Under the pieces are notes generated by a model. That model saw only the letters and a list, made by a program, of their open reading frames with translations. It was not told where the DNA came from and did not search any database. From Sanghuangporus weigelae (lineage: Eukaryota; Basidiomycota; Agaricomycetes; Hymenochaetales; Hymenochaetaceae): a stretch of DNA of 64,000 nt. Below are positions 33,230 to 64,000 of the stretch, one piece after another. The stretch lies in contig CP137327.1 of NCBI GenBank assembly GCA_033182465.1, positions 1,426,001 to 1,490,000 on the forward strand, written 5' to 3'. How positions within the stretch are numbered: the first letter of the stretch is position 1; the number at the start of each line of letters is the position of its first letter. The position numbers and the translations under genes are program-made.

Positions 33230-35538
33230 ATGGCTGATGGCGACACTTCCTTAGACTCCAACACCGACGACCAAGAGCGCAACATTCTCATTCTATATGC
33301 AACAGAAACTGGAAATGCTCTTGACGTGGCAGAGCAGATCGCGCGTGAGGCTAGACGAAGACTATTCACTGTCCGACTTTCCAGCGCGGAGGTCTATCCA
33401 CTTGTGTGTTCATTGATATCTTGTCCCAATTCTTGGCAGTTAAACATGATAAAATACAGGAAGGACTTGTGCACGAGACACTTGTCATCTTCGTCGTCTC
33501 TACGACCGGGTCTGGTGTCGAGCCAAGATCGATGACGCCGATGTGGAACATGCTCCTCCGTGCAGACCTCCCCAGCGATATCCTCGAGGACCTACATTTT
33601 GCGGTCTTCGGATTGGGAGACAGTGCATATGAGAAATTCTGTTGGGCGGCGAAGAAACTTTCCCGACGCCTCTTGAGCTTGGGTGCGCAAGAGATCTGCG
33701 CACGTGGGGAAGGGGACGAGCAGCATCCTCTCGGGTGGGTCTTATCTGCTTTATACAGCTTCTGTATGTTAATGCATCGAAGACAGCGCTGAAGGTGCTT
33801 TGGATGTGTGGATACCGCAGGTCTTCTCGGCGCTCGAAGCGCTACTTCCTCCACCGCTTGATGGAACCACTGAAGACCCGGATGTCCTTCCACCTCCCCG
33901 AATATCCATAACTACCTCGGGGAAGACATTAGGAAGCGTTGATGACCCGTTAGCTGGGTGTGATTACTATCATGTGGCAACTGTACGAAGAAATGATCGT
34001 ATCACTTCGGCGGACTGGTTCCAGGACGTGAGGCACATTGAACTGGATTTAGAGGATGACATTATGTATATCCTTTGTTTATCTGCTTTCTTCATGAATC
34101 CGAGCTGAATTGTCGGACACTAATAGCTACTCTCCCGGGGATGTAGCCGTCATACACCCTATACAGCTCTCATCGGATGTCGATTCATTCCTTAGTAGCA
34201 TGGGTTGGAGTGATACCGTTGACGAAGAAATATACCTCTCACCTGTTGAACGGTGTAAGGACCTAACACTGTTCTATTTCTGTTGCTGACACGTTATGCG
34301 ATAAAAGTTTGGTCAATACCAGAGACAATTCCTAGAAGAGCGACGCTTGGACAACTCTTCATTCGACATCTTGACATAAATGCTGTTCCACGACGCTCCT
34401 TTTTCAAGGTTCTTCGACATTTTGCTACAAACGAAATGGAAAAAGAGAAATTGTCTGAGTTTTGCACAACCCAGGGAGCCGTGAGTCCTTAGGCTAATAG
34501 TTTGCCGATTCCAATTTCTGACTTTGAGATATAGGATGAACTTTATGAATATGTGACGCGAGTCAGACGGACTGTTCGTGAGGTGATAGCTGAGTTTCGA
34601 TCGCTGAAGATCCCAAAGGAATACATATTCGATCTGTTTCCTCCGCTAAGGCCAAGACAGTTCTCTATTGCCAGCTCTTCTCTTGTCAGTGCTTATAATT
34701 TATCCAGTCGAATCTTCGTCATTAAACTGAAAAGTCCTCCAGGTCCATAGAAAGCAAGTCCACTTATGCGTCGCCATCGTACGATATAGAACCAAGTTAA
34801 AGATACCCAGACGGGGTGTGTGCTCAACATACCTCGCCGGTTTGAACCCTGGTTTGTTTCCCAAAGCTGATTTCTGCTTCTGTTGCTGACCTCTTAAATC
34901 GAAGGCGATACCCTGCGAATCAAAATACAAAAGGGTTTTCTATCCCAGCCGCAAAGTCCTGAGACACCGATTGTTTGCGTCGGACCTGGAACTGGGATTG
35001 CTCCTATGCGCGCTCTGATCGAACAACGGGTCCATGAAGGTTCAGCAAGTAAGAGCGGTTTTCATGAAGAAGAGAGAACAGCGCTCAAATTTGTTTCTCG
35101 CTGCAGACAACAGCCTCTATTTTGGTTGCCGTTCAGAATCAAAGGACCATCATTATGGATCCGAATGGCTGGCCTTGGCGGAGTCTGGGAAACTCACATA
35201 TCGCACGGCATTCTCCCGCGACGGTCCGGAAGGCGCGAAGCGCGTTTATGTACAAGACCGTATGCGAGAGGACGCGGAGAGGCTGTGGGACCTGCTTGGA
35301 CGAAGAGGGGGATGGTTGTATATCTCAGGGTAAGCATTCTTCAAAACACCTTCGTGACGATCTATTTTTCCTAATATAGCTGTGATTGCGTAGGTCGTCG
35401 AACAAAATGCCTGCGGCTGTGAAGGATGCTATAGCTTTCGCGGCTAAGGAGGCCGGAGGACTGTCGGAAGATGATGCAAAGGGATTCGTGAAGAGGATGC
35501 AAGATGAGAGCAGGCTTTTCGAGGAGTGTTGGAGTTGA
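33230..35538 (+). CDS. TAH18: TAH18, NADPH-dependent diflavin reductase
   Basis: Passes electrons from NADPH through FAD and FMN to Dre2 for cytosolic Fe-S protein assembly. The ATG at 33230 leads to the FMN domain (NILILYATETGNALDVAEQI; VVSTTGSGVEPRSM; FAVFGLGDSAYEKFCWAAKK). The FAD domain shows DLEDD, SPGDVAVIHP, PRRSFFKVLRHFA, RPRQFSIASSSL and LNPGDTLRIKIQKG. The NADPH domain shows VCVGPGTGIAPMRALIEQR, LYFGCRSESKDHHYGSEW, AFSRDGPEGAKRVYVQDR, WLYISGSSNKMPAAVKDA, and ends LFEECWS at 35536-35538. About ten short introns splice in frame. All cofactor motifs are present, so this is the functional copy. Two damaged copies lie 15 and 27 kb downstream. Confidence 0.93.
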
Positions 35539-36983
35539 GTACTTAGTGTCTAAGGTCGCGTTGTATTTAGAGGCGAAAATATCTGTACTGTCGTTGACTG
35601 CATAGCTTTATGAATCACTTAGCTGGAAGGAGAGTTGAGAAGCCTCAGTCTTCACCTTTAATATTCTGCTGGTGAGAGGTATTTGGTATGCCCTTATTGT
35701 AGTGCACTGTGTGGTTGGTAGAGCTCCTATGTCAAAAGACGTCCGCGACATAAACTAAGCAATCTGTTTGCAGCGTCATTCAAACCAGACTTTATCATTT
35801 CTTACTTTCAAGACCGGTAAAGCATCCACAGGTAAAGTTTTGTCCTACGTGAATTAGCTACATGATCGCAGAGCATTTCTTCAGGTCACTCACCACAGTT
35901 TTTGAGCACCAGAGCATCACGCTCAGCTGTCTCTGAAGCACTCTGCTTCTTGAATATTATTGTGATTCAAGGTAGGTTTTCTAAAAATCGAATGGGCGTC
36001 TTTAACATTTTGATGACGCCTCGGACGAGTTTCAGGAACTTGATGGCGTAGAGTATTGGTTAGAAGTGAGATTCGCGTTTTCTATATACCATGTTAACAT
36101 TTCTGATGACAGGCTTGGGAGAATTCGGTATTACTGCGCATTGGATGAATTGGAGTGAAGTGAAGCGAAGTGAGGTTGCTGCTGCTGCACCTCCATGCTA
36201 CCATAAGATTGTTGTCAGACTAGGCGTGTGATAAGAACTATTAGCAGCGTCAAGTCTTATCGTGCAACGGAGTCGCTCTCCTGAAAAAGGACAAGAGGAC
36301 TCGACATGCTCGTGAGAAGCAGAAAAGGGGCATGTTTGCCTCCGTGGCTCTGCAAAATCAAACGCGGAACGTCCCGATCCGTGCTTGATGATCGCTTGCA
36401 AAAGGCCATAGAGAAAACAACCACAAACAACGAAAATGTCAGGAAGTTGCAAAATGCCAAGATGAGGGTTGAAGTGTAAGGAATTGGTTCTGATAAGTCA
36501 TTTACATAAAGTAGATTATCAACTTACTCTCGCTGCACCCTTCATCGGTCTGAGCGGAGACGTCTTCATTTTGGTTAGTCCAAAGGCCCGAACCAAGCTG
36601 GTTTTCACAACACAAAGAGATCGGTTGACTTCAAGCAAGTGCGACAGGGAGAAGGTCTTTACATTCCGGACCAAAGGTAATGCTTTGACAGCTATGCAAG
36701 CAAGCATCAGCGACATGCAACAAATCTAAATGTCAGTATAATAAGACTTAATAGGTCGAGTTCAAGATGGCTCAAGATTAGTGCTCGAGTGACTGGTATT
36801 ATATTCGTGAAGCGTACATTTGAACCTTCGGCGCACGAACTATTCGCGTCCCATGGTACATTTCCATTACGGTGCGGTAACTAAAGGACAGCAGGTAGAA
36901 AAGTAAATATGTATATAGTAGAGTTACAGATAAATAGCCCTAATATGAAAAGAGATGGAAAACACGCTTCTCAGCCGATGAGA
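35539..36983. other. TAH18 3' flank, duplicated downstream; no gene supported
   Basis: About 35,540-36,060 matches 62,850-63,370, with runs such as TAGAGCTCCTATGTC in both. Hydrophobic minus-strand stretches at about 36,257-36,460 (FLTFSLFVVVFSMAF) and 36,519-36,716 could come from an old membrane-protein gene, but they do not join and no family is recognised. Confidence 0.5.
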
Positions 36984-39599
36984 TCAAAAAACTTCCACCA
37001 TGTACCTTGACGAAGCACATCCGTGGTTAGCCTACATCTTCTGTGTTCAAAAGATGCACTTACCTTGCCCTTTGAGGCGATCGAATAATCACCAAGGTCT
37101 CATCGTTCTTGTCTCGTCCTCGTTTGCCCGCATGATCCGCTCTAGTATGGTTCAAATCGCTGGCAGGAGCGTGGCTAGTAACGTGCGCTCGTCTCTCTTC
37201 GTCTTGCTGTCGCGAGCTCCGAGTCACTATGTCCGATGAGACCATGTCTTCAGGTCCTCTATTCCGTTGAGCTTTCTTTCGGCATGATACGGACCTCGCA
37301 CAGCTCAAAAAAATTCTGCATCTCCCAAAAAGTCTATGAACTTCATCGTGGGTTCCCTCGAGCAACTCCATGCGAACATTGGGAAAAGCAGCTTCGAACC
37401 GCACATACTTGTGAACTAGCGTAGTGCGGATAGTATCTAGCGCCGCCTTGATACTGCGAAGGTGATCCGGCAACCAGAGAAGGTAACCGTGATAATGGAA
37501 ATTGACTTGAAGAAATAATGTGCGGCTCGTAGTCTTACTGGATCGAGGGAATAGCTCCAATGCCGCAAGTCTTCGCTGCTCATCGCGTTCACTGTCATAG
37601 GCATCCGTATTGCTTTTCTGGAAGCTTGACGAGCGATGGAAAAGTTCCCAGATGGCGATCCACCATAAAGACTCCAAGTCATGGAGATCATTGTGAAAGA
37701 AAGAAGGGGGTAGTCGCTCCTCTCGAAGCTTTGCGAGGTCTTCCATTCTGTGTTCCTGCAGTGCTTTGAGTCGAGCGTATATGTTAGCGTTGCTGACCGG
37801 ACGAAGATGGCCGTAACATCGCACTGCAGCCTCGACAGCCATGAAGTGCGGGGTACCCTTCACGAGAATTAGGAGACAACCAAACATGAAAGGAGACGGG
37901 TCACTCACTGTTAGTAACTCATGTTCGACGTCGTAGTTCTTCTGCTTTGCGTATTCCAAATCTCCAATCAAACCGCGGCCTTCGTATAAGTACAGGTTTC
38001 CGACACTCAGATCACGATGTACCCAGCCGGCTCCATGAATAAACTTCAAGGCTACTCGATCTTCACGTCAGAGCGGGAATCAAAGAAGATATTGAGCAAA
38101 CCTTTTGTACTGTCACCCAATACAGTGAACGCATCTGCCATGTTCTGCACAGCACCAAGAGATTCCGCGACTTCTTCGAACACGACCCGGTAGTGCTTCC
38201 GATGCAGAATCCTCCTCATAGGGTTGTACCAATTGAGAGGGTCTTTCAAGTCGCCTCTCCATAAGCCTTCAACACCAATCTCGGTCGACGGGTTCATGTC
38301 ATCATCATTACATTTGTTTAGATTCTCGACATTCACCCTGTACTTCTCCTTGAAGGTTGGCGTGTATCCTCGCATCATTACGTTTCCTGTATGATCCTCT
38401 TCGCCATTGACACGGACAAGACAATGCGCGACAGGAGTGAGAAGATGTGAAGCCACCTCCTGTCGAGCCTCCGCACCATATTTCTCTTCAACGTCGTGAA
38501 GGAGCATCTCACGTATGAAGTGTTCAGGTTTCTGGTCTTCCTCGATCCAGACATCCTTCAGCACGTATGGGATGTCTGAGTCTTTTCCGTGCGCAATCCA
38601 CACTCTCGTTGCGTGGCTGACTAGCTCATCAGCAGAGCTCTTCGATAACACTTCGAGCGTTTCGTAAATCTCATCTCCGACATCTATACGATAGGCCTGA
38701 CTTCCGTCGCGCCTGGTGGAAGGCCGAATGGTCGGATCCCATCCTAATTCTTCCTTGGATGCGAAGGCGAGAGAGAGAAACACGTGAAACAGTAGGTCTA
38801 AATCCTGTTTCGACATCGTCAAGTGGACCGTCAAGCTATCACATTGTAATCTAGCTCTCACTTTAGAAAAGTCAAAAGGCTCGCTGACAACGGGAGATGC
38901 TCGCGAGCAGAACCAAAGACGCATGCTAGTATTCTCGACGGTAATTCCAAAGGAGAATCTTCGACCTGGGTCCCGCACCATAGCAAGCTGGATATTAGAA
39001 ATGATTTTTCTGACATTCTGAGGCAACACTACGTTTAATATTGCCGAGCCACAGAAAATGATACTCACCTTCGTGCAAGACTCTTGACTACTTGTCCTTC
39101 TGAGGACTGCAGTGAGCGCTATATCAAACCACGAGCTGATCGTGCACTTCTCTGCACTGGCCCCTGCGATTTGTTCTTCTCGGTCTTTGAGAACGAAGCA
39201 CGCGGTTTGCGAGGATATACTTCCTCGGTGACCATTTTCTCGACCATCCTTGCTTCGTTCAGGAATGAGTACCATCTCTAGCGCCTGCTCGAGATGTGGC
39301 GCTTTCGCAGAGGCTACAGAAGTCGCCTTTTCAAAAATGTCGACCAGGCGAAAGAGCCATATTTCTTCTTTCTCTTTCCTCGAGACACACCCCGAAAGTC
39401 CTTCCATCTGCCGGTGGAGTCAACATGTCCGTTTTTTCTCAGCATAGATACGATCCTTTCAACATCGATTCCATGCCTGAGCGGAGGCAGGAGATGGTCT
39501 ACGAATGTACACGCCTCAATCACGGGGAAAACATAGCCGGGGTTGCTCTTCTTCAAAATCGATTAGCTCCTGCAACTGGCGAGTAGCACTAGAATACAT
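36984..39599 (-). pseudogene. FunK1-A, fungal-type protein kinase, N-terminus frameshifted
   Basis: FunK1 kinases are expanded in Agaricomycetes; their substrates are unknown. The kinase part is open: Lys in VLKDVWIEEDQ, GWVHRDLSVGNLYLY (HRD intact), GDLEYAK at the DFG position, KGTPHFMAVEAA, and FHNDLHDLESLWWIAIW. The C-terminus is basic; a last intron joins SPQRAR to YMVEVF with the stop at 36984-36986. Against its paralog FunK1-D, the N-terminal region lacks 5 bases near 39,545 and 4 bases near 39,350, so the frame breaks twice between the ATG at 39599 and about 39,340. An in-frame ATG at 39407 could still start a protein without the first ~70 residues. I call it a probable pseudogene; a shortened active kinase is the alternative. 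Confidence 0.7.
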
Positions 39600-41217
39600 G
39601 TTGTTAGGTGCAGACATCAAGTTTTGATGAGGTAGTTAGAGACGACAATGAAGGTATAAGTCAACTTGAACTTTCGTGGCTTACAACTGAAGACGTACTA
39701 TCACGTATCACGCGAGATCTGCGAGAGCCTACGGAAACTTCCGACAAGTTACAGTTTGTGTTGCATTCCAATGTCATCGGGGCGCATTTACATAACGACC
39801 GTGGCTGAATTGGAAGCTTCGAGTCATGAAACATAACAGCGTGAGTCACGAATAGCGAGAGTTCCAGTAATCCATGCGTAAAATGATTCCTAACGTCTGA
39901 AATGTACTATTGACACCATCGCTGTCAAGTTTGCAGAATGTTCTTGCATTATCTATCTCTGATAGGCAAGTCAGTGGTGGGTGACAAGAAAGACGTAAGG
40001 AGAAAGGACGATTCTGTGTACAATTTTCACCTTTCTTTCGCAGCGGTTCGGGGCGGTTATCGTAAATCGTCATTTGCAATTCTGTTCCTGAAAAGCAATG
40101 TCGTTCCTAGGAATTCCTCGCTTGAATACCAGAACATCCACTGGTGGAAAAGATAATCTTGGAACTTTTCGCAGCACGTCGATTCGCAAGTATCCAACGT
40201 TCCAAGATAACTTCCAAATATTCAGAAATATGCAGATGATTGGACTCACATTCCAATTTTCAAGAGCTTCTCGACAGTTGCAAGAAATTCTCTAGCATAG
40301 CCGATTTTGTACCATATGAGTAGGTTAAGTCAGCCTGCATTGAGGTTAAGAAAAGCGAAGGTTGTCAACAGGAATCGCCGAGTTCAAATACAATCCGTTC
40401 AGAACAACTCAAGGACAAAAGTAGTTGCTGCACGCCTTAGTCTTCCAGTGAATTATAATTACTTCAGCAAATGCTGCAGTCAGCAAGTAAAAACATTCTT
40501 CAAGATAGAAAATCAGACCTGAATAACTATCTTTTCCCTTTCTCTTTTGCAAGTTGCCAGCGACCTTCATTTGTATTTATTTCAAAGTGAATCGCGCGTC
40601 GGAAGCAGATAGCAACACCGTGAAATCCAATTTGATATCCTTTCCTGTTGGATTCCATCGGATAGCGAATCTACAGCAAATTCGTAGTCGGGAAATCAAC
40701 AGAATCCAACTGTCCAATATACCTGGCCAATTCAGAAACATGACATTTTGTCCGATTCATACTACAGCCAGACAGTCCGTGAAAGATGAAGGCCATACCT
40801 ATCGTATCTAAATCTTAGAGTCAAGCGTACCACAGAAGCTGCGGGACCTCCTTGTTGCAGGTAAGCATGGAAGACGGTATCTTGCGGTGTCCACGCTGAC
40901 ATCACGGCTAGGGCTCGAGGAGCGCTTATTATGAGATAAATGAGATGCTCGGTAGGCGCTTCGAGCGCTTTTTGGAGAATGCGCAAATAGATTCATAAAC
41001 CATGCAGAGTACCAGCGTAATTTGAAGCAACACATTGACAGGACAGGGATGAAAACGAGAACTAGTGACGATCTTAAAGTTACATCTGTCTGTGACTGTG
41101 ACAATGTAACTGGCCAAGATGTACGTTACACGTGACGCGACGCGATTCTAACCACCACCACCATCTACTCTAATTTTTCCATTCCGATATCCTGCTTGCT
41201 CGAGATCTCCTGCAAAA
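39600..41217. promoter_or_regulatory. Divergent intergenic between FunK1-A and FunK1-B
   Basis: This 1.6-kb span lies between divergent FunK1 genes. The matching span between FunK1-D and FunK1-E is only 0.5 kb, so sequence was gained here or lost there. No gene, terminal repeat or element was recognised in it. Confidence 0.45.
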
Positions 41218-43913
41218 ATGAACCCTTCAGCAGCTCGATTCCACTCTGAAGATCCGACGTCCTCTAAACGGCATACTGCCCAACCTCCTGTTCCTTCCTC
41301 AAGTAGCCACGATTACGAACATGTCGACATGATACAGGAAATGCAGAGTCCGGGTTATGCCATCCCGGAAATAGATATAAACTCGTTTGTCGACCTCATT
41401 CTTCCCCCTCTAAAGGATGGCATAGTTGTCGAAGATATTATGTCGTCGTTGGTACATGAAGGTACTATCTCCACCAGCCGAGGATGGAAGGGCTGTAAAA
41501 GGACTGCATCGAACAGCTCAAACGGAAGAGAAAGTGATATATTTGCTCCTCTGTGGGACTTATTTGATAGAGCGGCTTCGGTGGCATCGAAAAGCACTCC
41601 CCATCTAGATCAGTTCATTCGAATGGCTTTTCTCCCTTCGAAACCGCGGCGAGCGTCGAGACGAAGGGTATCGCTAGAGAGGGCATACTTCGTTCTGAAT
41701 GGCGCTCAGAGACGCTCAGCGGGAAGAAAGTCAAAGAAACTCCCGAAATATACATGGTTCGATGTCGCTCTTACTATGGAACTCAAGAAGAACGATACCC
41801 GTCAGACGTGCGAAGACGTACGTGCCTAAAATTTCTCTCACTGATTCAGCATCTGAAGCTTCGTGCAGAACTCCAGGAATGTTATTCGTAACATTCAGCA
41901 AGTGATGGCCCGAGACCCATGCCGGAGATTCTCGTTTGGTATCACTGTCGAGAACACGAACATGCGCCTGTGGTTTTGTTCTCGTGCGACGCCGGTAGTC
42001 AGCAAGCCTTTCGATTTCACGATGGTATGCTCTTCACTAGCCTCGTCTGATGAATGTACTTCTTAACTTGGTTGGGTAGGATTTAGCGCTCTTATTGCAT
42101 GTGCTTCTTTCCTTCGCATTTGCTTCGAAGGAAGAACTGGGATGGGATTCGACAATCCGTCCGATCATCAAGAGCGACGGCAAACGGGCATACCACATCG
42201 ATATCGATGGTCAGACATACGAAACAATGAAAGTGCTGGCAGATGACGCAGCCGAAGAACTTGTGAGTCACGCAACCAGAGTATGGAGTGCCACCCATCT
42301 CGACTCGGGCGAACTCTTCGTCCTGAAGGACGTGTGGATAGAAGATGAACGGGATCTTGAACACTGCATTCGCGAGAAGCTTCTGTACGATATTGAAAGT
42401 GAATACGGTGCGGATGTACGGAAAGAGGTTGCCTCGCATCTACTCACCCCTGTCGTGAACTGGCTTGTATTTGACGGCAATAGGCAAGATCACACGACTA
42501 TCAACATGATGCGGGGGTTCTCGCCATCGTTCAGACAAACCTTTAAGGTCGATATTAGGACTCTCAGAGCACGAAATGATGATGGGATCGACGTCTTAAC
42601 ATGCACTGACCGGGAAGACATGAGGAGTCCTCTTCCCTGGTACAATCCCGTGAGGAAGATTTTCGGACGAAAGCATTACCGTGTTGTATTCAAAGAAGTC
42701 GCAACAGCACTCCATACGATCAATGATTCTGCTAGTGTTTTCATCGCCCTGAGCGATAGTGCAAGAGGTAAGCGTTTCTCGTCGATTACGGTAGAGGTGA
42801 TGGGCTTATTATCAACTAGTTTTGAAATGGATCCATGGATGCGGTTGGGTACACCGAGACATTAGCGTGGGTAACCTGTATCTTTATCATGGTCGAGGCT
42901 TGATCGGAGATTTGGAGTTCGCGAAGCGGAAAAACACTGATTTAGAGCACGAACTACGGACAGTAAGTAATCTTATTGTCCTGGTTCACTGTTACTGATG
43001 AAAGTGAAGGGCACTCCTGATTTTATGGCTGTCGAAGCGGCACGACGCTCCTACGAATATCTTCCGCAAATTGTCGATGATGATCTAGACGCGGAGCTGG
43101 AGGCATTATGTGAAGGCAGGGTAGATGAAGTCTGCTCAAAGTCAAAACCGGATCCAGCTGCTGCTTTCTTTCATAACGATCTGCATGATCTGGAGTCGCT
43201 ATGGTGGAGTGCCATTTGGATACTGTTTTGCGAATGCACTAGCTCATCGATGGGCGGCGCAAATTCATGTATGGATGGCTCAGGTGATCAACGTAATTGT
43301 GCCTTTTCCAAGCTTTTTTCCTGGACATCCAACACAGAGGACAGAAAGATGTTCACCGAGAGCAGGGCAATTTTCAATCAAAGAGTCGCTTGGATGCCGG
43401 ACCACCTCCGTGACTTGAGAGCTGCGATTGATTCCCTGCGCGTGGTGCTAGTTCGGAAGTATGTGGCATTCGAAGCCGGATTCCCTCGAATCCAAACAGA
43501 TGCTTTTGAAGGTATCCACGAGATATTTCAGAAGCATTTCAAACGATGCAGTGAAATAATCGCTGAGATCAGGCTCTCGTCGTCCAAAGCAGATGGCCAA
43601 AGGCTTCAGCACACCGATGTGGAGCATGCATCGGCCACTTTACCCTTTCAATCCAAGACGCAACCCACCGAGCTCGAAGCTTCGAAGAGTAGGCCGCTCG
43701 ACCTTATGGGTGATGCGAGGAACTCCGAACCTATGATAGGCGATGCTGCTGCGCCGAAGCATATCGGAGTTAGGAAAGGAAAACGTAAACGAGAAGACAA
43801 CGAAGACTTACCTCCTATGCGCCCGTTTCGCATGGCAAGGTGCGTATTTTTTTCAAAAAAGACATCCATCAAACTGACTCTCCTTCATCAGATACGTACT
43901 CGGGGTTTGCTGA
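41218..43913 (+). CDS. FunK1-B, fungal-type protein kinase, intact
   Basis: The spliced model is about 820 residues, unbroken. An N-terminal helical domain (SPGYAIPEIDINSFVDLILP; FAPLWDLFDRAASVAS) is followed by MARDPCRRFSFGITVENTNM, RLWFCSRATPVV and FAFASKEELGWDSTIRP. The kinase fold then begins: YETMKVLADDAAEEL, catalytic Lys in LFVLKDVWIED, acidic helix residues, VMMRG-like NMMRGFSPSF, and RKHYRVVFKEVATAL. After an intron: LKWIHGCGWVHRDISVGNLY and GDLEFAKRKNTD. After another: KGTPDFMAVEAARR, then FHNDLHDLESLWWSAIWIL. The tail has a nuclear-localisation-like KGKRKRED, and a tiny last exon gives ARYVLGVC. Six or so introns all keep frame. The HRD Asp and Lys suggest catalysis. It is divergent from FunK1-A and in tandem with FunK1-C. 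Confidence 0.88.
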
Positions 43914-47032: not shown

Positions 47033-47523
47033 GAGGACTAGGCCGGTAACCAATTGCTCCAAAGAAGCCTCAGGAGGCTCACTGTGATGGTCGGGTTTGT
47101 CCGTCGTATGTTTGATGTATACGTAAGCTTGCTGTATACAGTATATGCTTTCATTTGTACTCCTCCACGTTTTAATTGCAGACTATGAGAGATATTTTAT
47201 TTGACCAATATTGATGCCAGCGCGAACCAGTAGTTGATCGATATCATGTAACCAGCGTTGCCGAAGTAGTGGAAATTCTGATCGAGGTCTCCCGAGAGTG
47301 AATTTCAAACATCGATGGAAAGAAACCGAAGTGCAGCGGGTGATATGCCAGGCGAAGAGGATCCACAATGCAAGTTCCTTCGCACTCTGCCTTCAGACGC
47401 CCGCCATTTGTCAATAGGGCTTAAGCAGGTAGGAGCGAGCAGGTAGGAGCGACACAATATCTCCAGGCGCTGAGGTCAATATCATATCGGCACATATAGT
47501 AAAGGAATGAACTCATAGAGGAC
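47033..47523. other. Intergenic / decayed left end of FunK1 relic 1
   Basis: A short part near 47,260-47,290 (GCCGAAGTAGTGGAAATTCT) resembles 58,675-58,700 in the second relic, so the relic may start here. There is no coding potential. Confidence 0.4.
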
Positions 47524-47971
47524 CTGCATGTACGAGCTATTCATGAATTGCGACACTTAGAGAATCACATGGACCATGACGAAGCCGACCAAATAGCCAA
47601 CGGTTGGCGAGACGCAGCTTTTCCAGTAATCCCTGGAACCGGAGCAACAAAAGGTCGTCTGATTTTCTTAAAGATAAGATCGTGTGTGAAAAATACGTAT
47701 GTCTGGAAGATTCAAGGATATCCAAACTTCACTGGCCAATCTTCGTAGACGTGTGATTTGGTTCTACATGCTCTTTGTGAAGAGCCTGCCTGCAATCGAA
47801 CCAGATGTCTTCGAAGGCTCACAGGATAATTGTATGAACATTCGATGCATGTTTGAAACATAAGATCTTGCCATGTCAGACTACAGCACTCCAGTCGTAC
47901 GTCAAGCAGAATAAGAGTGAATGGAGCTTGCCTACCAAATCTTTGTTTGATGGTGCGAAGAGAGCAACTTG
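47524..47971 (+). pseudogene. FunK1 relic 1, C-lobe fragment of C-type
   Basis: YELFMNCDT followed by a stop, then RITWTMTK, and later GLKRAT-like ends match the 3' part of C-type FunK1 genes (YELFMNSDTSENHMDHD in relic 2). The upstream kinase is missing. It is nearly identical to 59,021-59,493. Confidence 0.7.
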
Positions 47972-48596: not shown

Positions 48597-48801
48597 TGGC
48601 GACGTTTCCTCAGACTCTAACGCCGACGACCAAGAGCGCAACATTCTCATCTTATTTGCAACAGAAATTGGAAATGCTCTCGACGTAGCGGAGCAGATTG
48701 TGCGCGAGGCCACACGAAGGCTGTTCACCATCCGACTTTCCAGTGTCGATGTCTATCTACTTATGTGTTCATTCAGATCTGGTCCCAATTCTTGGCAACT
48801 T
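48597..48801 (+). pseudogene. TAH18 copy 2, 5' fragment only
   Basis: GDVSSDSNADDQERNILILF and then NALDVAEQIVREATRRLFTI match codons 4-60 of TAH18. The start codon and first three codons are absent because the copy begins at the array junction. Similarity stops at TTGGCAACT (48,801), inside the first intron. The remaining ~2 kb of the gene is missing. Confidence 0.85.
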
Positions 48802-52408: not shown

Positions 52409-55083
52409 ATGAGCACCTTCCTATCAAGAGTTACCGGTGCTGATCTGACGTCCTCAAGTCAATGCACGCCCCTGCCACCCGGTTTCACGACCACCGAGGA
52501 TGGAGAATACGTTAGTGTTTCGGAGAGACTGAGGAATCCGGGCTATTCTATCCCAGAGATCTCTACTCAAAACTTCTTTGACTTCCTACTTCCTCCCTTG
52601 AGGGATGGAATCGCCGTTCAGGACGTTATTTCGTCTCTGAAAGTCGAAGGGCTTTTCGATTCATTCAATGGTCTTAGCGCGCCTCCTACAAACAAAAGGG
52701 AAGACGAAATGTTCGCGCCTCTTGCCGACATATTCAACAAGGCCACCTTTTCAGCAGCAATGGCTTCCCCTCATCTGCAGCAGACTATCCAGTTGGTTCT
52801 CTTGGGGAACCGGAGTCGGAAGGGTCAAAGAGTCCCACACGCATATTTCTCCGTGAACGGCGCGAAAGATAACTCCACGGCGCGAAGCGGACACAACGAG
52901 ATTCTGAAGACATTCTCATGGGCAGATGTCGCACTCACAAGCGAGTTCGATTTCGGGATAAATGGCGAAGTGTGGGACAACGTAAGCATCATCAGACTCC
53001 CATTGATCTCAAGATTAATTCCCGTATTAGATCGTACATAACAGACTTATTCTGGACATTCAGCAAATTATGGCTCGAGATCCCTGTCGTAGATTTGCAT
53101 TTGGCATTACTGTGGTAGAGACGACGATGCGTCTGTGGTTTTGTTCTCGGGCGACGCCGGTAGTCAGTCAACCATTTGATTTCACAACGGTGAGTGCCTC
53201 CTTCGATGAAGTAACACATTGCCGTCTAACTGTGTCGAGTAGGAACCGGAGATGCTAGTCCACGCTTTCCTTTCTCTCGCGTTCGCCTCTAAAGAGGAAC
53301 TAGGCTGGGATTCAACATTCCGCGCACTTACAGACCCTGAAGGAAATCGGACATATCATATAGACATCGCCAACGAGACATACGAGACATTGCAGCTATT
53401 GTCAGACGGCGCGGCTGAAGAACTGACTAGCCATGGAACAAGAGTGTGGAAAGTGAGGCGCGTGGGATCAAACGAGCTGTACGTCGTTAAGGACGTCTGG
53501 GTGGAAGATGGGCGCGACCTCGAACACAGCATACTCGAGACAATACTGAATGACGTCGAAGAGAAATACGGATCGGACGCTCGGAAGCGAGTGGCGTCGC
53601 ATTTGCTTATCCCTGCAGCACATTGGCTCGTCCCTATCCGCGAGGAAGAAGATCATACAGCGCAAGTTATGATGCGTGGGCATTTGCCGCGGTTCAAGAA
53701 TAGGATCAAGATCAGCATTGGACTCATAGATGAGGTGGATGATATCGATACCGAGGAATCCTTAGATACCCTCGTAATCCAAGAATCGGAGAGTCGACTT
53801 TCCCGGGCACCATTGCCTTGGTGCAACCGTAAACTGAAGATCGTACACCGCAGACATTATCGTATTTTGTATGAAGAAGTCGCAACTGCTCTCTATGCAA
53901 TCAGAAATCTCCCAGACATCTTCACTGTATTAAGTGACAGTGCAAATGGTGCGTGTTCTGTAATGATTTTCTGTCGTTTACTTAAAGATTCTGTAGCTTT
54001 GAAATGGATCCATGGATGCGGCTGGGTTCACCGTGACATCAGCGCAGGGAACCTATACCTATACAATGGTCGTGGCCTGATCGGTGACTTTGAACACGCC
54101 AAGCGTAAACAAACCGACATCAGGCATGAGCACCGAATCGTGAGTGGTTGAGTCTAGTCATACGAGCATTTACGCTAAGTTGTATCAAGGGTACTCCTGA
54201 CTTCATGGCTATCGAAGCAACGAGGCGTTTCTATGCCCATCTCCCTGACGATGACCCCAGTCAAATAGAGACTGAAGGCCAAACTCCATTAGGACGCCGG
54301 ATAGATGAAAGTTGCTCCCGGAAAGGATCCGATCTTTCTCCACCCTTTTTTCATAATGATCTCCATGATTTGGAGTCATTATGGTGGATTGCCATTTGGA
54401 TACTTTTCTCCTATCGTTTTTTCTCGGGGAATATAATTACAGGTTCGCACGAGAAAGAAGGTGACGTTCAACGAGGATCCTCAGGCGCCGAAATATTCCC
54501 TGGGAATAGTGATACAGAGAATCGTAAAATGTTCCTCGTCAGCAAGGAGATCTACTTCAGAAGATTCTCTTGGATGCCTGATTGCCTTCGGAGCATCAAG
54601 GCTACTTTGAACACTCTCCGAAGGATACTCATCTGGAGGTATCGAAAGTTCGAAGCGGCGTTTCCTGCAATCCAAATGGACCTTTTTGAAGGGGTTCACG
54701 ATAGAGTTGGAAGAAATTTCTTAAAATGCAAGACGCTCGCGGCTTCACTTAGATCGAACGAAAAAAAGTTCGACTGCTCAAGGATCGACCGTTCAGCACG
54801 TGAACATTATACCTTACCCGCTTCATCAACGCGACGGTCTCTTAAGCGAGAGTCTTTGATTGATAGGTCGACACCCACGATAAAGACACGCAAGTTTGCG
54901 ACGGACGACGCTACTGGACCCTTAACAAACATCAGAACGAACGGAAAACGGAAGAGGGATGACGATGACAGTTTACCATGTATGCGTCCGCTTCGTATGG
55001 CAAGGTATGTCTGTTTGCTGCAGTCCCGCATCCGAAACTGACTGACTATCATTTACCCAAGGTATGAGCTTCCGGTTTGCTGA
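52409..55083 (+). CDS. FunK1-E, fungal-type protein kinase, intact
   Basis: The paralog of FunK1-B, about 800 residues, no break found. N-domain: NPGYSIPEISTQNFFDFLLP, MFAPLADIFNKATFSAAM. Then MARDPCRRFAFGITVVETTM, FASKEELGWDST, YETLQLLSDGAAEELTSHG, Lys in YVVKDVWVEDGRD, VMMRGHLPRF and RRHYRILYEEVATALY. The intron at about 53,949-53,995 joins SAN to ALKWIHGCGWVHRDISAGN; GDFEHAKRKQTD takes the DFG position. After the next intron come KGTPDFMAIEATRRFYAH and FHNDLHDLESLWWIAIWILF. The disordered tail contains NGKRKRDDDDSLPCMRPLRM, and the tiny last exon gives ARYELPVC with the stop at 55081-55083. HRD and Lys are kept, so it may be active. Confidence 0.88.
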
Positions 55084-55547: not shown

Positions 55548-58319
55548 ATGTCCTTCCGTCCGTTCCCTGCTACTCTAGATGAAGAGACCCCTATTGCAAC
55601 TCACGCACGTCCAAAAACGCCAACAGAGTCAGGACCCGGCAGCGGCTTCTTCGATGACTCTCCTCCAAAGTTACGACTAAGTCACACTCGAGAGTTTCGA
55701 GCTGGAGACCTAGAATCCATTAAAACAGCCCTTGCCCAGGATCAAAGCTATTCCATACCTGAGATCAATCTTGATCCATTCGTGAAGCACCTGCTTCCTC
55801 CTTTAAAGGATGGGCTGGATGTCGATGCCATTCTGGCCTTGGCTAGCAACGACAGTAGCTTGATTGGTCCGGGGGGAGAGTCATGGACGGACTTTCAATC
55901 TGCACCGATTAAACGAAACAAATGCGAAGATGATGTGTTTGCGCCTCTTGCGGTGATATGCGAAAAGATTTGTTCCTATGCTGCTGAAACCGCAGAGTTG
56001 GAGCAGAATTTCATTCTGGCTCTATTGCCGTATTATACGCCTCGATCCGAGCGGAACAGTACAACCCGGCCTGATGCTTACTTTCTTCCCAAGGAACTAA
56101 AGGAGCATGTCAGTTCCATGGAGACAAAAAAGGAACTACAGACAAAGAGAAGGCCATTTACTGCGGCGAAGGTGACGACTAGTACACGATCTGAGGAGGA
56201 GGAAATAATATCGTGGTATGATACTGCGGTTCCAGGTGAATTCAAAAAGGAAAGTTCACCGGGAACTCAGTCCAGAGTGAGCGCTTCTTTGTTCTGCATG
56301 GAATGCAGGAACTAAATTTGCGTACAGAATTCAAAGCAATTGATTCTCAACATGCATAATATTATGACTCTTGATCCGTGTCGTAGGTTCACGTTTGGCT
56401 TCACTATTGAGAATACAAGCATGCGATTGTGGTTCTGTTCTCGTGCCATCGTCCTTGTCAGCAAAGAATTCGATTTTTCGAGAGTGAGTAGTGCAAATCC
56501 CCTTGAAAGTTCGAAGCCTTACTGAAAATTTCTCTAGAAGCTGAGGATATTCATACACGTTCTCCTTTCGTTTTCTTTTGCGTCAAAAGAGGAGCTAGGT
56601 TGGGACCCGACAATCGAGCCTTTCATTGGAACCGATGGCATGAGAGCCTACCGAATTAGTTTGAATGGACAAATCTATGAGACGGTGAAAATCCTTTCGG
56701 ACGTGGCTGCTGATGCATTGAATAGTCGAGCAACCCGTGTTTGGCTCGTCCGGCTTCTGGGAACTCGGTTATTCTTTGTGCTAAAAGACGTCTGGCTAGA
56801 ATATGACAGAGACGCGGAGGATGACATTCGCCGGATGATCCTGGAGGACGTCGAAAAGATATTCGGGAAGGACGCTAAAGAGGAACTCTCTTCGCACCTT
56901 CTCACTCCGGTTGCATGTGGCCTTGTACCTGCCGCCGGACAAGACGATGACACGCTTACTGTCATGATGCGCGGCTATACACCGCGCTTGACAGATTTTT
57001 ATTCGATTAAAAAGGAAGGATACGTAAACGCCGATGCAAAGAAAAGTACTGGTCCCCCTTCGACAAGCGACTCGGACATCAATCGCGTACAAATACCTCG
57101 AATCGAGCTCAGGAAGATTGCACGTCGAAAACACTACCGGATCGTATTTTCAGAGGCAGCCAGACCCATACATACGGTTGGGACATTGTCGGACGTTTTT
57201 CTTGTACTTAAAGATAGCGCAAAAGGTACGAATACAATCCAATTTCATGGTATATTGTATCTGACCGATAGTAGCATTGAAATGGATACACGGAGCTGGA
57301 TGGGTCCATCGAGACATCAGCGCGGGCAATCTATACTATTACAGTGGTACAAACGGCGACGGGAGGGGCATAATAGGAGACTTGGAATATGCGAAACGAA
57401 GGGGTGCAGTTGGCAGACACAAGATACGAACTGTACGTATTATAGTACTACCTGACGGGGTCCCGAACTCATTGTTGACTAGGCAAATACTGATTTCATG
57501 GCAACCGAGGTTCTCACCAGAGTCTACCGGTTTCGACCAACCCATGATTCCGAGTCAGATCCCGAGTCAGATCCTGAGTCAGATCCCGAATTGGATCTCG
57601 AATCGAATACAGGACCGAAGGCAGATAGTCACAGCGAAGGCTCCTCTTGGGAACAAACAAAATCATCTTTACCTTTCTTCCATAACGATCTCCATGACTT
57701 GGAGTCGCTATGGTGGATCGCAATCTACCTGCTCTTTATGAATGACGACAGCTCTGATCCGGAGAAAGTCAGCCAAAAGGCCGAGGTGTTCAGAGAGGAA
57801 GTCTCCCTCCTGATATTTCCCAGATCTAAAGAAACCGAAGACAGAGCGACTTTTCTTATCGACAAGGATCAGTTCCATATCAAGATTTCGTGGATGCCAA
57901 GACGTTACAAAAAAATCAAATCTGCTTTGAATCGTCTGAGGAAGGACTTGATAAACTACTACAAGACGTTTGAAGCCAAACTACCCCAAATTTATACGGA
58001 CGCCTTCGCGGGTTCGCAGGATACATTTCGAGACCAATTTCAAAGTTGCGAGGCGCATGCGAAGGGCATTGAGCTCGTGCCTCGTAAAGCGACAGCGATC
58101 CAGCTGCCTGACATTGAACAAGGGGTACGCCTTCCGTCTTCAAGTGGCACTTCAAGAGCAGGCTGGCATGGCGTGCAGCCAAAGTCAGGTCCTGTAGCTT
58201 CGGTGGAAACTGATGCATTTGAGAGTCCCGTGGCACCTAAGAGGCGAAAGCAGGGAGAGGACAACTCGTCACGCGAAGGTATATTGAATTTATTATCTGT
58301 CAATCAGAACATCGACTAA
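55548..58319 (+). CDS. FunK1-F, fungal-type protein kinase, intact C-type
   Basis: The spliced model is about 850 residues, frame intact. N-domain: SYSIPEINLDPFVKHLLPPL, DDVFAPLAVICEKICSYAAE. Then TLDPCRRFTFGFTIENTSMR, FASKEELGWDPT, YETVKILSDVAADALNSRAT, Lys in FFVLKDVWLEYDRD, VMMRGYTPRL and RKHYRIVFSEAARPIH. After an intron (about 57,225-57,274): ALKWIHGAGWVHRDISAGN, then YYYSGTNGDGRGIIGDLEYA. After another: ANTDFMATEVLTRVYRF, a repeat-rich acidic loop (ESDPESDPESDPELDLES), FFHNDLHDLESLWWIAIYLL and SWMPRRYKKIKSALNRL. The tail has PKRRKQGED. The stop is at 58317-58319. It is the only unbroken C-type copy here; FunK1-C is dead. Confidence 0.87.
57543..57600 (+). repeat. 15-bp repeat in FunK1-F coding sequence
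   Basis: About three and a half copies of a 15-base unit like GAGTCAGATCCCGAG encode SDPES-type repeats. They lie in the kinase C-lobe loop just before FFHNDLHDLE and are absent from the other copies. Confidence 0.75.
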
Positions 58320-58679: not shown

Positions 58680-59493
58680 AAGTGCTGGAAATCCTGCCAA
58701 ACCCCAAAGGTGATCATCAGCCTCTGACTACGGAGAGAAGTACGGAAGCGACGCACCACTCCTGATTCGGAAGAGCTTTTCGTTTTTGAAATATGCACGG
58801 GTGGAAGACAAGCCATTTACAAGGCAATACTACATGACGTCGAGGATAAATATGGAAAGAGCGTACGAGAGCTTGTCACAGAGAAATTCTTGTGGCTAAC
58901 GAAGTCACTCTTCGGGAATACCGTTGCAGATTGCCTATCGACGTTTCAGAGACGGACGAAAGACAGCAGCCCGCCTTTTACAACAACGATCTGCACGACC
59001 TGGATCCATTATGGCGGACCTGCATCTACGAGCTATTCATGAATAGCGACACTTCAGAGAATCACATGGACCATGACAAAGTCGGACAGACAGTCGATGG
59101 TCGGCGAGACACAGCTCTTGCCGTGTTCTTCAAAACGGGTGCAATAAAAGGTCGCCTGATTTTCTTGATAATAAGATTGTGTTTGAAAAATACGTCTCTT
59201 AGGTGCCTGGAAGATTCAAGGATATCAAAGCTTTGCTGGCCTAACTTCGTAGATATGTGGTTCGATTCTACGTGCTCTTTGAGAAGAGCCTGCCTGCAAT
59301 CGAACCAGATGTCTTCAGAAGCTCACAGGATATATTTGTAGGAACATTTGGCGCATCTTTGAAACACTCAAAAGATATCGGGATCTCGCCATATAAGACT
59401 ACAGCACACCAGCTCTCGTACGTCAAGCAGAACAAGAATGAATGGAGCTTGCCTACTAAATCTTTGTTTGATAATGCGAAGAGAGCAACTTGA
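58680..59493 (+). pseudogene. FunK1 relic 2, internally deleted C-type gene
   Basis: Pieces of a C-type FunK1 in order: EVLEIL (kinase N-lobe), AILHDVEDKYGKSVRELV (58,830-58,880), then directly ANEVTLREYRC, NNDLHDLDPLWRTCIYELFM and a frameshifted tail ending KRAT at 59,491. The catalytic loop and everything between are deleted, and frames do not connect. Its second half is nearly identical to relic 1 at 47,524-47,971. Confidence 0.75.
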
Positions 59494-60148
59494 TCGAAAC
59501 CAGGCCCTTCATTCGCAGCAAGAATCGGAGGATCAGGCAAATGAAAGCAGAGTGACCTTTAAAATACAATCTGCAAAGAAAGGTAAGCAGATGCTTGTGC
59601 TTCTTAAATTATAGAATATACAGTGCCGACCTTTCCACGTAAGTGACTCGAAGGAGAATTAAAAGACGTCCGGTATAGATTCCATACTCACCCCAAGGGA
59701 CTAATCTGGTGGATAGAGCTGTCCTGTCCAGTCAATCACAGCAGTCTCTCATCGGTTTCAGGTAAACATTTCTTACTTCCATATGCTTTACGCATGCCGA
59801 TGCCTACTGTATAGTAAGATATGACGTACGCCTTCCTATGTCTCTGCCCGTTGTTGTATGATGCAAGCTAGTTATATGGGCCAAAGTGACTGTATTGATG
59901 AGGTGACGAAAGAATGCCCAACCGTAGAAAACGTCGAGATAGAAGGAAGTGAGGTGGCATGCGATATAGGATGTCCTTGAGCCTGGGAATAAGTCACGTA
60001 ACGCGTTTTTCACGGCTAGCTGAAGTCTTAAGTCTTGACTTGACGTCGCCCGAATCCACCGTCTACAAGATGTTGACCGGAATTGCATCCGTTTTATCAG
60101 GAAAGTGTTCGGTAAATGAGCCTCGGGCTTGAGCGCAGCAAGTAATAT
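59494..60148. other. Unit-end spacer, copy 2
   Basis: Non-coding, almost the same as 47,972-48,596. It has a short extra segment near 60,020-60,070 before the TAH18 junction. Confidence 0.7.
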
Positions 60149-62812
60149 TGGCGACGCTTCCTTAGACTCTAACACCGACAACTAAGAGCGCAACATTCTG
60201 ATCTGGAGGTGCTTGCTCTTGACACGGCGGAGCAGGTTGCGCGTGAGGCTAGATGAAGGCTGTTCATCATCCGGCTTCCCAGAGTCGATGTCCATCCACT
60301 TGTGTGTTCATTCAGGTCTGGTCCCAATCTTGGCAACTAAACATGATAAAACACAGGAAGAACTCGTGTGGAACATGTTTCTCCTCGCAGACCTCCTCAG
60401 CGACATCCTCGAGTGCCTACATTTTAAGTTTTCGGATTGAGAGGCAGCGCATATGAGAAAATCTGCTGGGCGGTGAAGAAACTCTCTCGACGCCTCTTGA
60501 GCTTGGGTGTGCAAGAGGTCTGTGCACGCGGGGTGGGTATTTTTTGCTTTATTTGTACAGCTTCTGAATTTTTATGCATCGAAGGCAGCGTTGAAGGTGC
60601 TCTGGATGTGTGGATGCCGCAGGTCTTTTTGGTGCTTGAATCTCTGCTTCCTCCACCACTTGATGGAACCATTGAAGACCCCGATGCCCTTCTACCTCCC
60701 GAATCCACAACTACTTCGGGAAGACGTTGGATTGCGTTGACGACCCATTATCCGGATTTAAAGAATACCTTTTGGCAGCTGTACGAAGAAATGATCGTAT
60801 CACTTCGGCGGACTGGGTCCAGGACGTGAGGCACATTGAACTGGATTTAGAGGATGACGTTATGTATCTCCTGTTTGTCTGCTTTCTTCATGAGTCTGAG
60901 CTGAATTGTCGGGTTATAACAACTACTCTCCCGGGGATGTAGCCGTCATACAAGCTATACAGCCCTCATCGGATGTCGATCTTTCCTTGGCAGCATGGGT
61001 TGGACTGACAGCGCTGACAAGGAAAAATTCTGCTCGTCTGTTGAACGACGTGAGTATCTAATATTCTTCCTTTTCTACTGCTCACACTTAGTGCAACAAA
61101 ATTTCGGTCAATTTCAGGGCTTATCCCTAGAAGAACGACATCTAGACAACTCTTCATTCGACACCTACATAAATGCTGTTCCACGACGCTCCTTTCTCAA
61201 AGTTCTTCGACATTTTGCCACAAATGAAATGGAGAAAGAGAAACTATCTGAGTTTTGCAACCAGGGAGCCGTGATTCCTTAGGCGAATATTTTGCCGTTT
61301 CTGATTTCTGACTTTGAGACTAGGACGAACTTTATGAATATGTTCCGCGTGTCAGACGGACTATTCGTGAAGTGATAACTGAGTTTCGGTCGCTGAAGAT
61401 GCCGAAGGAATACATGTTCGGTTTGTCTCCTCTGCTAGGATCAGGGCAATTCTTTATTGCCAGCTCTTGTCTTGTTAGTACTTATAAGTTTATCCAGTCA
61501 AATCTTCCGCATTAAACTGAAAAGTCCACCAGGTCCATAGAAAGCACGTCCACTTACGCGTCGCCATCGTGCGTTATACAGTAGAACCTGTGGATAAGAA
61601 TGCTCCTCGGTGGACACGAAAAGCATTCTTATCCAGGTTATTCCAAACTGCGACATTATATAATTGAAAAATATTACATCATAACCAAATCCGGAAATTA
61701 TCCAGCCCGATTTCTAACCTGACAAGCGAGACAAAGAAGGGAGGATAAGAGCAACCATTGGAGATCTTGCATTTTAGTCGCTTATGTTGTAAATATTTCA
61801 TTCTTTTGGTTGGACAAGAGTCCGAAATTATCGATTACGTCTGGCGGAGAAACTACAGGCCTCGCATATATACCAAATATGGTAAGAATGCATCACTTGA
61901 TCACCTCTCATTAGGAATTTCCGAAGAAAAAGTGTATTCCATATACCGACTTAGAAAATATTCTTATTGGACCCTGAATTTCCCGCCTACCAACCCCATA
62001 GTCTCAAAAATCCATTCTTAACCTCAGGTTATTCCTATCCACCAGTATTCTTATGTACAGGTTCTACTGTAGAACCAAGTTAAAGATACCCAGACGGGGT
62101 GTGTGCTCAACATACCCCGTCGTTTTGAATCATGGTTTGTTTCTCAAAGCTGATTTCCGCTTCTGTTACTGACCTCTTAAATCGAAGGCGATACCTTACG
62201 AATCAAAATACAAAGAGGCATTTTATCCCAGCCGCGAAGTCCTGAGACACCGATTGTCTGCGTCGGACGACCTGGAAGTGGAATTGCTCGTATGCGCGCT
62301 CCGATCGAACATCGGATCCATGACGGTGCAGCAAGTAAGCGCGATTCTTATGAAGAGAGAGCAGTACTTAACTTTGAATCTCGCTGCAGACAATACTCTT
62401 TATTTTGGTTGCCGCTCAGAATCGAAAGATCATCATTATGGTTCTGAGTGGTTCTCCCTGGCAGAGTCTGGGAAACTCACATACCGCACGGTATTCTCCC
62501 GCGATGGCCCAGAAGGCGTGAAGCACGTTTATGCACAAGACCGTATGCGAGAGGATGCGGAGAGGTTCTGGGATCTAACGAAAAGGAAGATGGCTGTAAA
62601 TTTCAGGGCAAACATTCCTCAGCACCTTCATGACGTTTTTTCCCCTTGATAAACGTGTGATTGCATAGGTCATCGAACAAAATGCCTGCTGCCATGAAGG
62701 ACGCTGTAGCTTTTGCTGCTCGAGAAACTGGAGAAGTTTCGGAGGATGACGCAAAAAGCTTTAAGAAGAGATGCAAGATGAAGGCAGGCTTTTCGAGGTG
62801 TCCTGGAGTTGA
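60149..62812 (+). pseudogene. TAH18 copy 3, full-length pseudogene carrying a MITE
   Basis: Covers codon 4 to the stop of TAH18. Recognisable blocks: LSRRLLSLGVQEVCARG, GALDVWMPQVFLVLESLLPP, RRNDRITSADWVQDVRHIEL, VPRRSFLKVLRHFATNEMEK, LYFGCRSESKDHHYGSEW, RMREDAERFWDL, SSNKMPAAMKDAVAFAA. It has no start codon (array junction), a stop right after the first block (TDN-stop), part of the FMN domain deleted near 60,205, several frameshifts and a 491-bp insertion. It cannot make a diflavin reductase. Confidence 0.9.
61579..62069. mobile_element. 491-bp pogo-like MITE, TA target duplication
   Basis: The left end CAGTAGAACCTGT and right end ACAGGTTCTACTG are inverted, and the similarity continues less exactly (GGATAAGAAT; ATTCTTATG). 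TA flanks both ends (61577-61578 and 62070-62071). The empty site is seen in intact TAH18 near 34,783, where the gene runs from ATCGTACGATA into GAACCAAGTT without interruption. CAGTAGAACCT-type ends with a TA duplication fit pogo/Tc1-mariner MITEs. An 87-codon open stretch inside has no known match. Confidence 0.88.
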
Positions 62813-63862
62813 GGAGGATGCGTGCTTTGCGTCCAATTGCGTTAATATCTAGAGGCGGATTAGTTGTATTTTCATCGAGGGCGAGGGCTTATGGGAGATC
62901 ATACGGAAGAGGAACTGGGAAGGCTCAGTTTTGCCTTTAATATTTGCCGCTGGTGGAAGGTATTCGGTATGTTCTTATTATCGCGCACTGTATGTAGTAG
63001 AGCTCCTATGTCATCTGCGACACAAATTAGGTAATCTATTTTCTCCAAAACGGAGCATTGTTCAGCCAGTCATCATCCCTTACTTCCGTTTCGGAACTGG
63101 CAAAGCATCCACAGATAACATTTTGTCCTATGTGCAATTAGATACTGCAGATCATCGCAGGACATCTCTGCAGGCCGGTCAGCTCAGTTTGTGAGCGCCA
63201 GGATGCTACCATCGAAGTATGCATGCAGGTGACTCTCATCTGTCTCCGAAGCACCCTGCTTCTTAAATTCCTTTGTTGTTCAAGAATCGAGGTAGGATCT
63301 TTTGACAATCGAATAGCGTCTGTGATACTTCGATGGCACCTCTAACGAGCCACAGAGCTTTGTATGGCGCAGAGTTTTCGTTACGAACTTTGAAGCAAGA
63401 CTGTTCTTGAGAAATCTGTATCCGCAACTTCGACGATCATTGAGAAACGCAGTCACGGCTGCTTGGTCATCTCCTTGGAGTTCGGAGAACTGTGTACGAA
63501 GGAAAGTAATAGTAGATGCGCAACAGGCCTTGGTAGTCCCTGCATGTACTTACTGTCCAGAAACTTTGACTTTACGGTCAAATGCGATTTTTGTCATGTT
63601 CGATTTTGCGTGTGTGGACTGTATATATATTGTGTTTGGATAACGTCTAACTTCCTTGCTCAAGAAAGAGATGTCGCGCATTCAGTAGTTAGATGCAAAT
63701 ATGCCAAGTCGCACGTGAAACCCAAACAGCACCGTAGATAAGACTCGTGATCGTGATACATATTCGAGCTGGCACATCTTATCAGAATATCTATACATCG
63801 CAGGAGGCAGAAGAACTAAATGAAAATGAGACAATCTCTCTTACTTATAACACGTAATAATA
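62813..63862. other. Duplicated TAH18 3' flank, then unrecognised spacer
   Basis: The first 550 bases match 35,539-36,060 (for example TAGAGCTCCTATGTCAT). The rest up to the A-type FunK1 end has no gene I can support. Confidence 0.5.
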
Positions 63863-64000
63863 TTAAAAAACTTCAAGCGTAAACCTTGAAAAGAGCGTTT
63901 CTGATCAGCGTTCTCCCCTCCAAATAGTCAATGTCAATCTTACCTTGCTATTCGATTTGGTGGCATGGACAGGACATTGTCATCATTGTCACGCTTGCGT
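63863..64000 (-). CDS. FunK1-G, C-terminus of a third A-type FunK1 gene (partial)
   Basis: At the right edge the minus strand reads RKRDNDDNVLSMPPNRIAR, then a donor GTAAGA (63,943) and an acceptor TTCAAG (63,885), then a 22-base last exon giving FTLEVF and a stop at 63863-63865. This copies the end of FunK1-A (RARYMVEVF) and FunK1-D (HSVEVF), and the KRKR-acidic-MRP tail of FunK1-B and E. The position and strand are those expected for the A-type gene of unit 3. Whether the rest is intact lies outside the window. Confidence 0.75.

Follow-up and report, generated by a model that had tools for sequence, protein, structure and literature searches.

TAH18 relics as junction markers in a FunK1 kinase array of Sanghuangporus weigelae, and what they suggest about the age of the kinases

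Organization of the TAH18-FunK1 locus

A 64,000-nt stretch of the Sanghuangporus weigelae genome (positions 1,426,001-1,490,000 of contig CP137327.1; hereafter the window) carries an intact TAH18/NDOR1-type gene followed by an array of FunK1 protein kinases, in which broken fragments of TAH18 recur (Table 1). The window was analyzed within a 163-kb region that adds 30 kb to its left and 69 kb to its right; coordinates beyond 64,000 continue the window numbering. The genome (33.87 Mb, 13 contigs) gave 117 FunK1 family matches at exon level, and the 163-kb region holds 17 matches to the exon with the HRD motif, two of them left of the window. The results indicate that the TAH18 fragments mark a real junction, and suggest that the duplication so marked probably did not create the kinase family.

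The order TAH18, A(-)B(+)C(+), relic, D(-)E(+)F(+), relic, described in the first-pass annotation of this DNA, was confirmed. It is followed by a third group, G(-)H(+)I(+), which lies beyond the right edge of the window apart from the tail of G, extending into it as far as about 63,960, and then by J(+) and five more kinases with an HRD exon further right. The TAH18 similarity that the annotation had seen again to the right of F is a broken copy (relic 3); one intact TAH18 is present.

Table 1. Features of the TAH18-FunK1 locus within the window
Feature	Position	Strand	Remarks
TAH18/NDOR1-type gene, intact	33,230-35,538	+	599 aa, ten exons; left parent of the junction
FunK1 kinase A	37,060-39,419	-	open frames, HRDLS; PF17667 99 and 31 bits
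A-B spacer	39,749-41,070	.	about 68-79% like the pre-J spacer beyond the window (75,231-76,480), sharp edges
FunK1 kinase B	41,875-43,603	+	HRDIS; PF17667 62 bits
FunK1 kinase C	45,093-46,906	+	HRGL replaces the HRD aspartate; stops in the C-terminal match (some may be intronic)
Spacer L2, left of first junction	47,515-48,595	.	holds a 211-bp run (47,954-48,164) identical to spacer L3
TAH18 relic 2	48,597-48,797	+	201 bp at 85%; starts TGGCGAC
FunK1 kinase D	49,395-51,542	-	HRDLS; PF17667 64 bits
FunK1 kinase E	53,043-55,005	+	HRDIS; PF17667 78 bits
FunK1 kinase F	56,316-58,049	+	HRDIS; PF17667 76 bits
FunK1 C-terminal fragment	58,955-59,173	+	left part of spacer L3
Spacer L3, left of second junction	59,011-60,147	.	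left part holds the FunK1 C-terminal fragment
TAH18 relic 3, first part	60,149-61,578	+	78-82%; starts TGGCGAC, frame broken
Transposon-like insert in relic 3	61,579-62,069	.	491 bp; terminal inverted repeats (CAGTAGAACCT...), TA target duplication
TAH18 relic 3, second part	62,070-63,383	+	75%; takes in about 0.5 kb of 3' flank

The TAH18 gene model has nine GT-AG introns of 52-64 bp each, and its predicted protein exceeded the Pfam cut-offs for the flavodoxin (PF00258), FAD-binding (PF00667) and NAD-binding (PF00175) domains. The flavodoxin domain matched NDOR1 (4h2d) with 134 bits, with sulfite reductase next at 65 and P450 reductase at 55; by this domain NDOR1 is a nearer relative of the protein than either sulfite reductase or cytochrome P450 reductase. 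With the whole protein, P450 reductases ranked first, NDOR1 being seen only as its 165-residue flavodoxin domain (among the matches listed, 60 of 154). Searches of the genome at both DNA and protein level found no further TAH18 copy besides the gene and the two relics, the remaining diflavin reductases being 24-36% identical to it, and the 2.7 kb 5' of TAH18 matched nothing else in the 163-kb region. In yeast, TAH18 is the essential electron donor to Dre2, and by analogy we take the gene to be essential in this fungus as well. To its left, just before an NPR3 gene (26,797-29,332), a segment at 25,934-26,073 resembles the 5' portions of kinases A and D (72%) and is possibly a FunK1 scrap outside the array.

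Kinases A, B, D, E and F exceeded the curated Pfam cut-off for PF17667 (Pkinase_fungal, 24.1 bits); the core piece of C fell just below it (23.9) and its N-terminal piece above it (33.8). The motif is HRD(I/L)S in A, B and D to I, HSDLS in J and HRGLG in C. Kinase C is probably degenerate, and both C and J (HSDL, 78,160-78,294), in which canonical catalytic residues are lost, are candidate pseudokinases or dying genes. Weak kinase-fragment matches (E-values 0.0003-0.001) lie between I and J.

The spacer-TAH18 junctions

Both relics were found, as noted before, to start at the same TGGCGAC, that is, with the third base of codon 3 and then codon 4 of TAH18, the breakpoint in the gene being at 33,237/33,238. 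The DNA on their left flank is shared: spacers L2 and L3 are alike for about 1.08 kb leftward of the relics and unrelated to the DNA upstream of TAH18, indicating that the relics were indeed born without the TAH18 start codon or promoter. The novel junctions are at 48,595/48,597 and 60,147/60,149. The last 132 bp of the junction spacer matched (73%) an unrearranged right parent at 74,804-74,933, 11 kb outside the window. The match runs up to a breakpoint at 74,933/74,934, after which the right parent continues into non-TAH18 DNA, and this continuation recurs at 79,514-79,609 (75%). Since the unrearranged form is present twice (74.9 kb and 79.5 kb), the junction is the derived form. The junction is therefore real and polarised, with the polarity of a direct duplication and with both parents present unrearranged, in agreement with the proposal that a duplication captured TAH18 at one of its edges and left the original intact.

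TAH18 and the 74.9-kb spacer share a 4-bp TGAT at the breakpoint, which is lacking in the 79.5-kb spacer and in the junctions, which read AATAC or AATAT before TGGCGAC; microhomology at the breakpoint is thus a hint only. A dispersed transposon as the nature of the spacer was unsupported, as searches of the own genome with spacer DNA matched this array only; these searches were not very sensitive, one missing a copy near 79,400 and another missing that copy and L3.

Alignment with the TAH18 exons shows 11 deletion runs and three in-register stops in relic 3. The codon pattern of the pair (dN, nonsynonymous divergence, 0.12-0.13; dS, synonymous divergence, 0.29-0.37) is that of one constrained and one broken lineage. 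CpG hypermutation of the relic was weak as an explanation (transitions at 46/277 CpG sites and at 121/982 of the remaining C or G sites). At 16 of 188 sites relics 2 and 3 share a base that differs from TAH18, in keeping with a single origin of the junction, although some of these sites may have changed within TAH18 itself. The relics are dead, neutral debris that is useful as a clock. The similarity between TAH18 and relic 3 stops sharply near 36,070/63,400, about 0.5 kb beyond the TAH18 stop, without continuing into the kinases. The insert that splits relic 3 has four near copies (91-95%) and weaker relatives elsewhere in the genome, and therefore probably belongs to a fairly recently active transposon family.

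Divergence of kinases, spacers and TAH18 copies

Outside one trough, described below, 267 of 1019 silent or noncoding sites (26%) distinguish TAH18 from relic 3; at fourfold sites over the whole gene the count is 43 of 197. The junction spacers differ from the unrearranged right parent at 26/124 and 35/124 sites, a divergence statistically the same as in the TAH18/relic 3 pair (Fisher p = 0.23 and 0.67), in keeping with a single event having produced both. The kinases were compared in all 105 pairs among 15 of the 17 loci with an HRD-exon match, in a concatenated set that omitted Q and the locus at -23.9 kb and did not use a fragment at 91 kb. The closest pair, A/D, differs at 67 of 164 fourfold sites (41%), significantly more than TAH18 and relic 3 (p = 0.00017); D/G (72/148) and A/G (78/152) come next. 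Saturation is reached in B/E (75/112) and C/F (56/83), whose divergence also departs from that of A/D (p = 2.8e-5 and 8.9e-5). No kinase pair (0/105) was as close as TAH18 and relic 3. The noncoding flanks revealed a similar difference, with 170/425 sites changed beside A/D against 143/508 beside TAH18 (p = 0.00017). Fourfold sites and flanks together therefore indicate that no examined kinase pair is as young as the TAH18 capture, and from these comparisons the kinase lineages appear to predate it. The earlier proposal that this event also multiplied a trio of kinases was thus unsupported, in view both of the 105 pairs and of the end of TAH18 homology short of the kinases.

The dN/dS ratio was about 0.15-0.23 for A/D, A/G and D/G, suggesting that these three kinases evolved under purifying selection. 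Faster-than-neutral protein evolution as the source of the kinase divergence was rejected on the same ratios and because the fourfold sites themselves are diverged. A first kinase tree used 18 of 26 extracted kinase pieces (omitting C8a-e, C11a, C5a and C7b). In the tree of 15 loci, A and D grouped with 100% support, A, D and G with 90%, and C, F and I with 96%; B, E, H and J were poorly resolved.

A sensitive self-comparison showed the collinear diagonal expected by the first-pass annotation between 36.9-48.6 and 49.2-60.1 kb, but its quality was very uneven: 72% over 36.9-39.7 kb, 59% for B/E and C/F, 61% for a fragment and 83% over 47.5-48.6 kb. Off-diagonal kinase matches (B/F, C/E and, on the other strand, A/E and B/D) were nearly as good, at 57-60%. 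The A/D similarity ends near 39,680, and that of L2 and L3 begins abruptly at 47,515. The A-B spacer had no comparable match to the D-E spacer, the spacer before J being the only close relative found. Because of these sharp edges and the mismatched spacer, the array would seem to have been cut and joined many times, and a one-step or two-step tandem model does not fit. The spacer before J also holds a weak FunK1-like match (75,556-75,675), and the A-B spacer may hold the same FunK1-like relic.

Two tracts pointed to gene conversion. The identical run shared by L2 and L3 is 211 bp long, against an average of 29 in shuffled columns. Between TAH18 and relic 3, a trough at 34,359-35,060 differs at 28/262 silent sites against 267/1019 elsewhere (p = 2.5e-8), a level about half that of the neighbouring segments or lower; this segment was picked after viewing the divergence profile, and the six segments jointly were also uneven (p = 6e-6). 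The longest identical run of that pair is 50 bp, against 25 in shuffles. Gene conversion is thus likely both in the L2/L3 spacers and between TAH18 and relic 3.

A false duplication made by the assembler is unlikely, since divergence among the copies is 12-28% over most segments of TAH18 and the spacers, and their insertions and deletions are not the same. Left of the array, an inverted pair of about 3.1 kb with 70% identity is formed by 1,347-4,818 of the window and L011:1411-4788; the open reading frame at 4,470-5,120 had no Pfam match. Two identical 548-bp direct repeats 5 kb apart (L017:7372-7919 and L018:2615-3162) resemble the ends of a young retroelement.

History of the array and relation to known systems

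We lean, with limited confidence, towards a history in which TAH18 was captured late, at the edge of a FunK1 array already old and rearranged, and the junction was then copied once. An old birth-and-death array would have adjoined a single TAH18 gene beforehand. A direct duplication then joined an array spacer, unrearranged at 74,804-75,031, to TAH18 codons 3/4, producing a headless TAH18 copy right of the spacer and leaving the original intact; this step is documented by the parents and the junction. The kinase copies made at the same time would not have been kept, or the copied stretch would have been short, since there is no kinase pair of that age and the TAH18 homology ends sharply. The junction would have been copied once more, giving relics 2 and 3 with spacers L2 and L3, and later short-tract exchange by gene conversion among the spacers and between TAH18 and the relic may account for the identical run and the silent-divergence trough. 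How far conversion reached decides between a late capture and an old capture later homogenised, and the even background over the remainder of TAH18 favours the former.

A single old event may instead have duplicated TAH18 together with the trio, conversion then having homogenised TAH18 and its relics, the spacers and, less strongly, the A-type kinases while the B and C types drifted apart. The element order repeated in three units, the grouping of A-type and C-type kinases across units, the two conversion-like tracts and the sharp-edged blocks of low divergence are all in agreement with it. On the other hand, TAH18 and relic 3 have diverged evenly at silent sites (0.22-0.28 in five of six segments), leaving no old unconverted stretch in 2.8 kb, and conversion would have to reproduce by chance the agreement of spacer/right-parent divergence with that of TAH18/relic 3; we regard such a history as possible but rather doubtful. 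Pasting of a 2.8-kb TAH18 piece (33,238-36,070) into an array spacer, with later copying of the spacer-relic junction to a neighbouring spacer and no large tandem duplication, would explain why the similarity of TAH18 and relic 3 is sharp at both ends and why no kinase pair has the right age. It seems unlikely, as the spacer's right half is absent right of the relic and a simple paste does not predict a spacer pair of the same age as TAH18/relic 3. The history first put forward, one or two duplications of TAH18-A-B-C each yielding a kinase trio, accounts for the collinear order, the junctions and the unrearranged right parent. It is highly improbable, however, because the kinases are far too diverged at fourfold sites for the junction markers and A/D diverges to a different degree from B/E and C/F; it is contradicted unless the mutation rate at silent sites of the kinases is about twice that in TAH18 and the spacers, or higher.

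Several observations weigh against a late capture. A duplicated trio would be expected to produce both the kinase tree and the recurrent order (tah18, A-type minus, B-type plus, C-type plus, spacer), and the three-trio topology was not rejected (approximately unbiased test, p-AU 0.55; trio topologies 0.55 and 0.14); an old duplication of a trio may well lie behind this order. The comparison of spacers with the right parent rests on 124 sites, and the identical-run test was not significant in the other low-divergence blocks (A/D, p = 0.13; A-B spacer, p = 0.06). Distances among the four spacers did not follow the simplest grouping (L2 with R3, L3 with R4). Neither the spacer's right half nor the first unit's interval between TAH18 and A turned up, even as a remnant, right of the relics, so that the steps of rearrangement cannot be fully ordered. 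Loss of every simultaneous kinase copy is also a large claim.

The A-B spacer differs from the spacer before J by 20% over the first 829 sites and by 30% over all 1495, while B and J differ at 79 of 114 fourfold sites (69%). The FunK1 coding cassettes might thus be more deeply diverged at silent sites than the spacers adjoining them, and the array might act like an allorecognition or resistance-gene locus, in which unequal exchange juxtaposes ancient, selection-separated kinase lineages and recycles spacers and a captured host gene; this we offer as a speculation with little probability behind it.

Tandem duplications can leave promoter-less partial copies of a gene at their edge. The present locus resembles such cases in having a breakpoint inside a gene, an intact original and a headless copy at a novel junction, but differs in that no kinase partner of matching age is retained and the junction was copied again and partly converted; all genes of a direct tandem unit should be of the same age as its junction markers, which was not observed here. 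Tandem arrays also undergo concerted evolution by gene conversion, and an identical run and a trough of silent divergence within diverged repeats are likewise found here. The significant tracts, however, were in spacers and TAH18 only, A/D, the sole kinase pair run-tested, being not significant. If the trough is a conversion tract, a pseudogene may still have exchanged sequence with a working, presumed essential TAH18.

The FunK1 family (PF17667) was described from Coprinopsis cinerea, and it occupies many loci, with lineage-specific expansions reported in Paracoccidioides and Coccidioides and a serine in place of lysine in the active-site loop (PMC3203195). The array described here likewise has many loci with an HRDxS active site, the placing of that serine in HRDxS being our own reading. 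It differs from those expansions in that captured fragments of a neighbouring gene set the paralogs against neutral junction markers, and the paralogs come out older. Among the papers listed for FunK1, none concerned arrays in mushrooms as far as the titles show.

The case is ordinary in kind and instructive in detail. The first-pass annotation read the junction correctly, and the TAH18 fragments proved more useful as markers than it claimed, but they suggest an origin of the kinases before the capture. Some fungi have strongly expanded sets of FunK1 kinases, and a captured fragment of a housekeeping gene provides a neutral clock inside such an array. By this clock, the events that gave rise to the paralogs need not be those that left visible junctions, which calls for caution when the growth of a gene family is inferred from tandem order.

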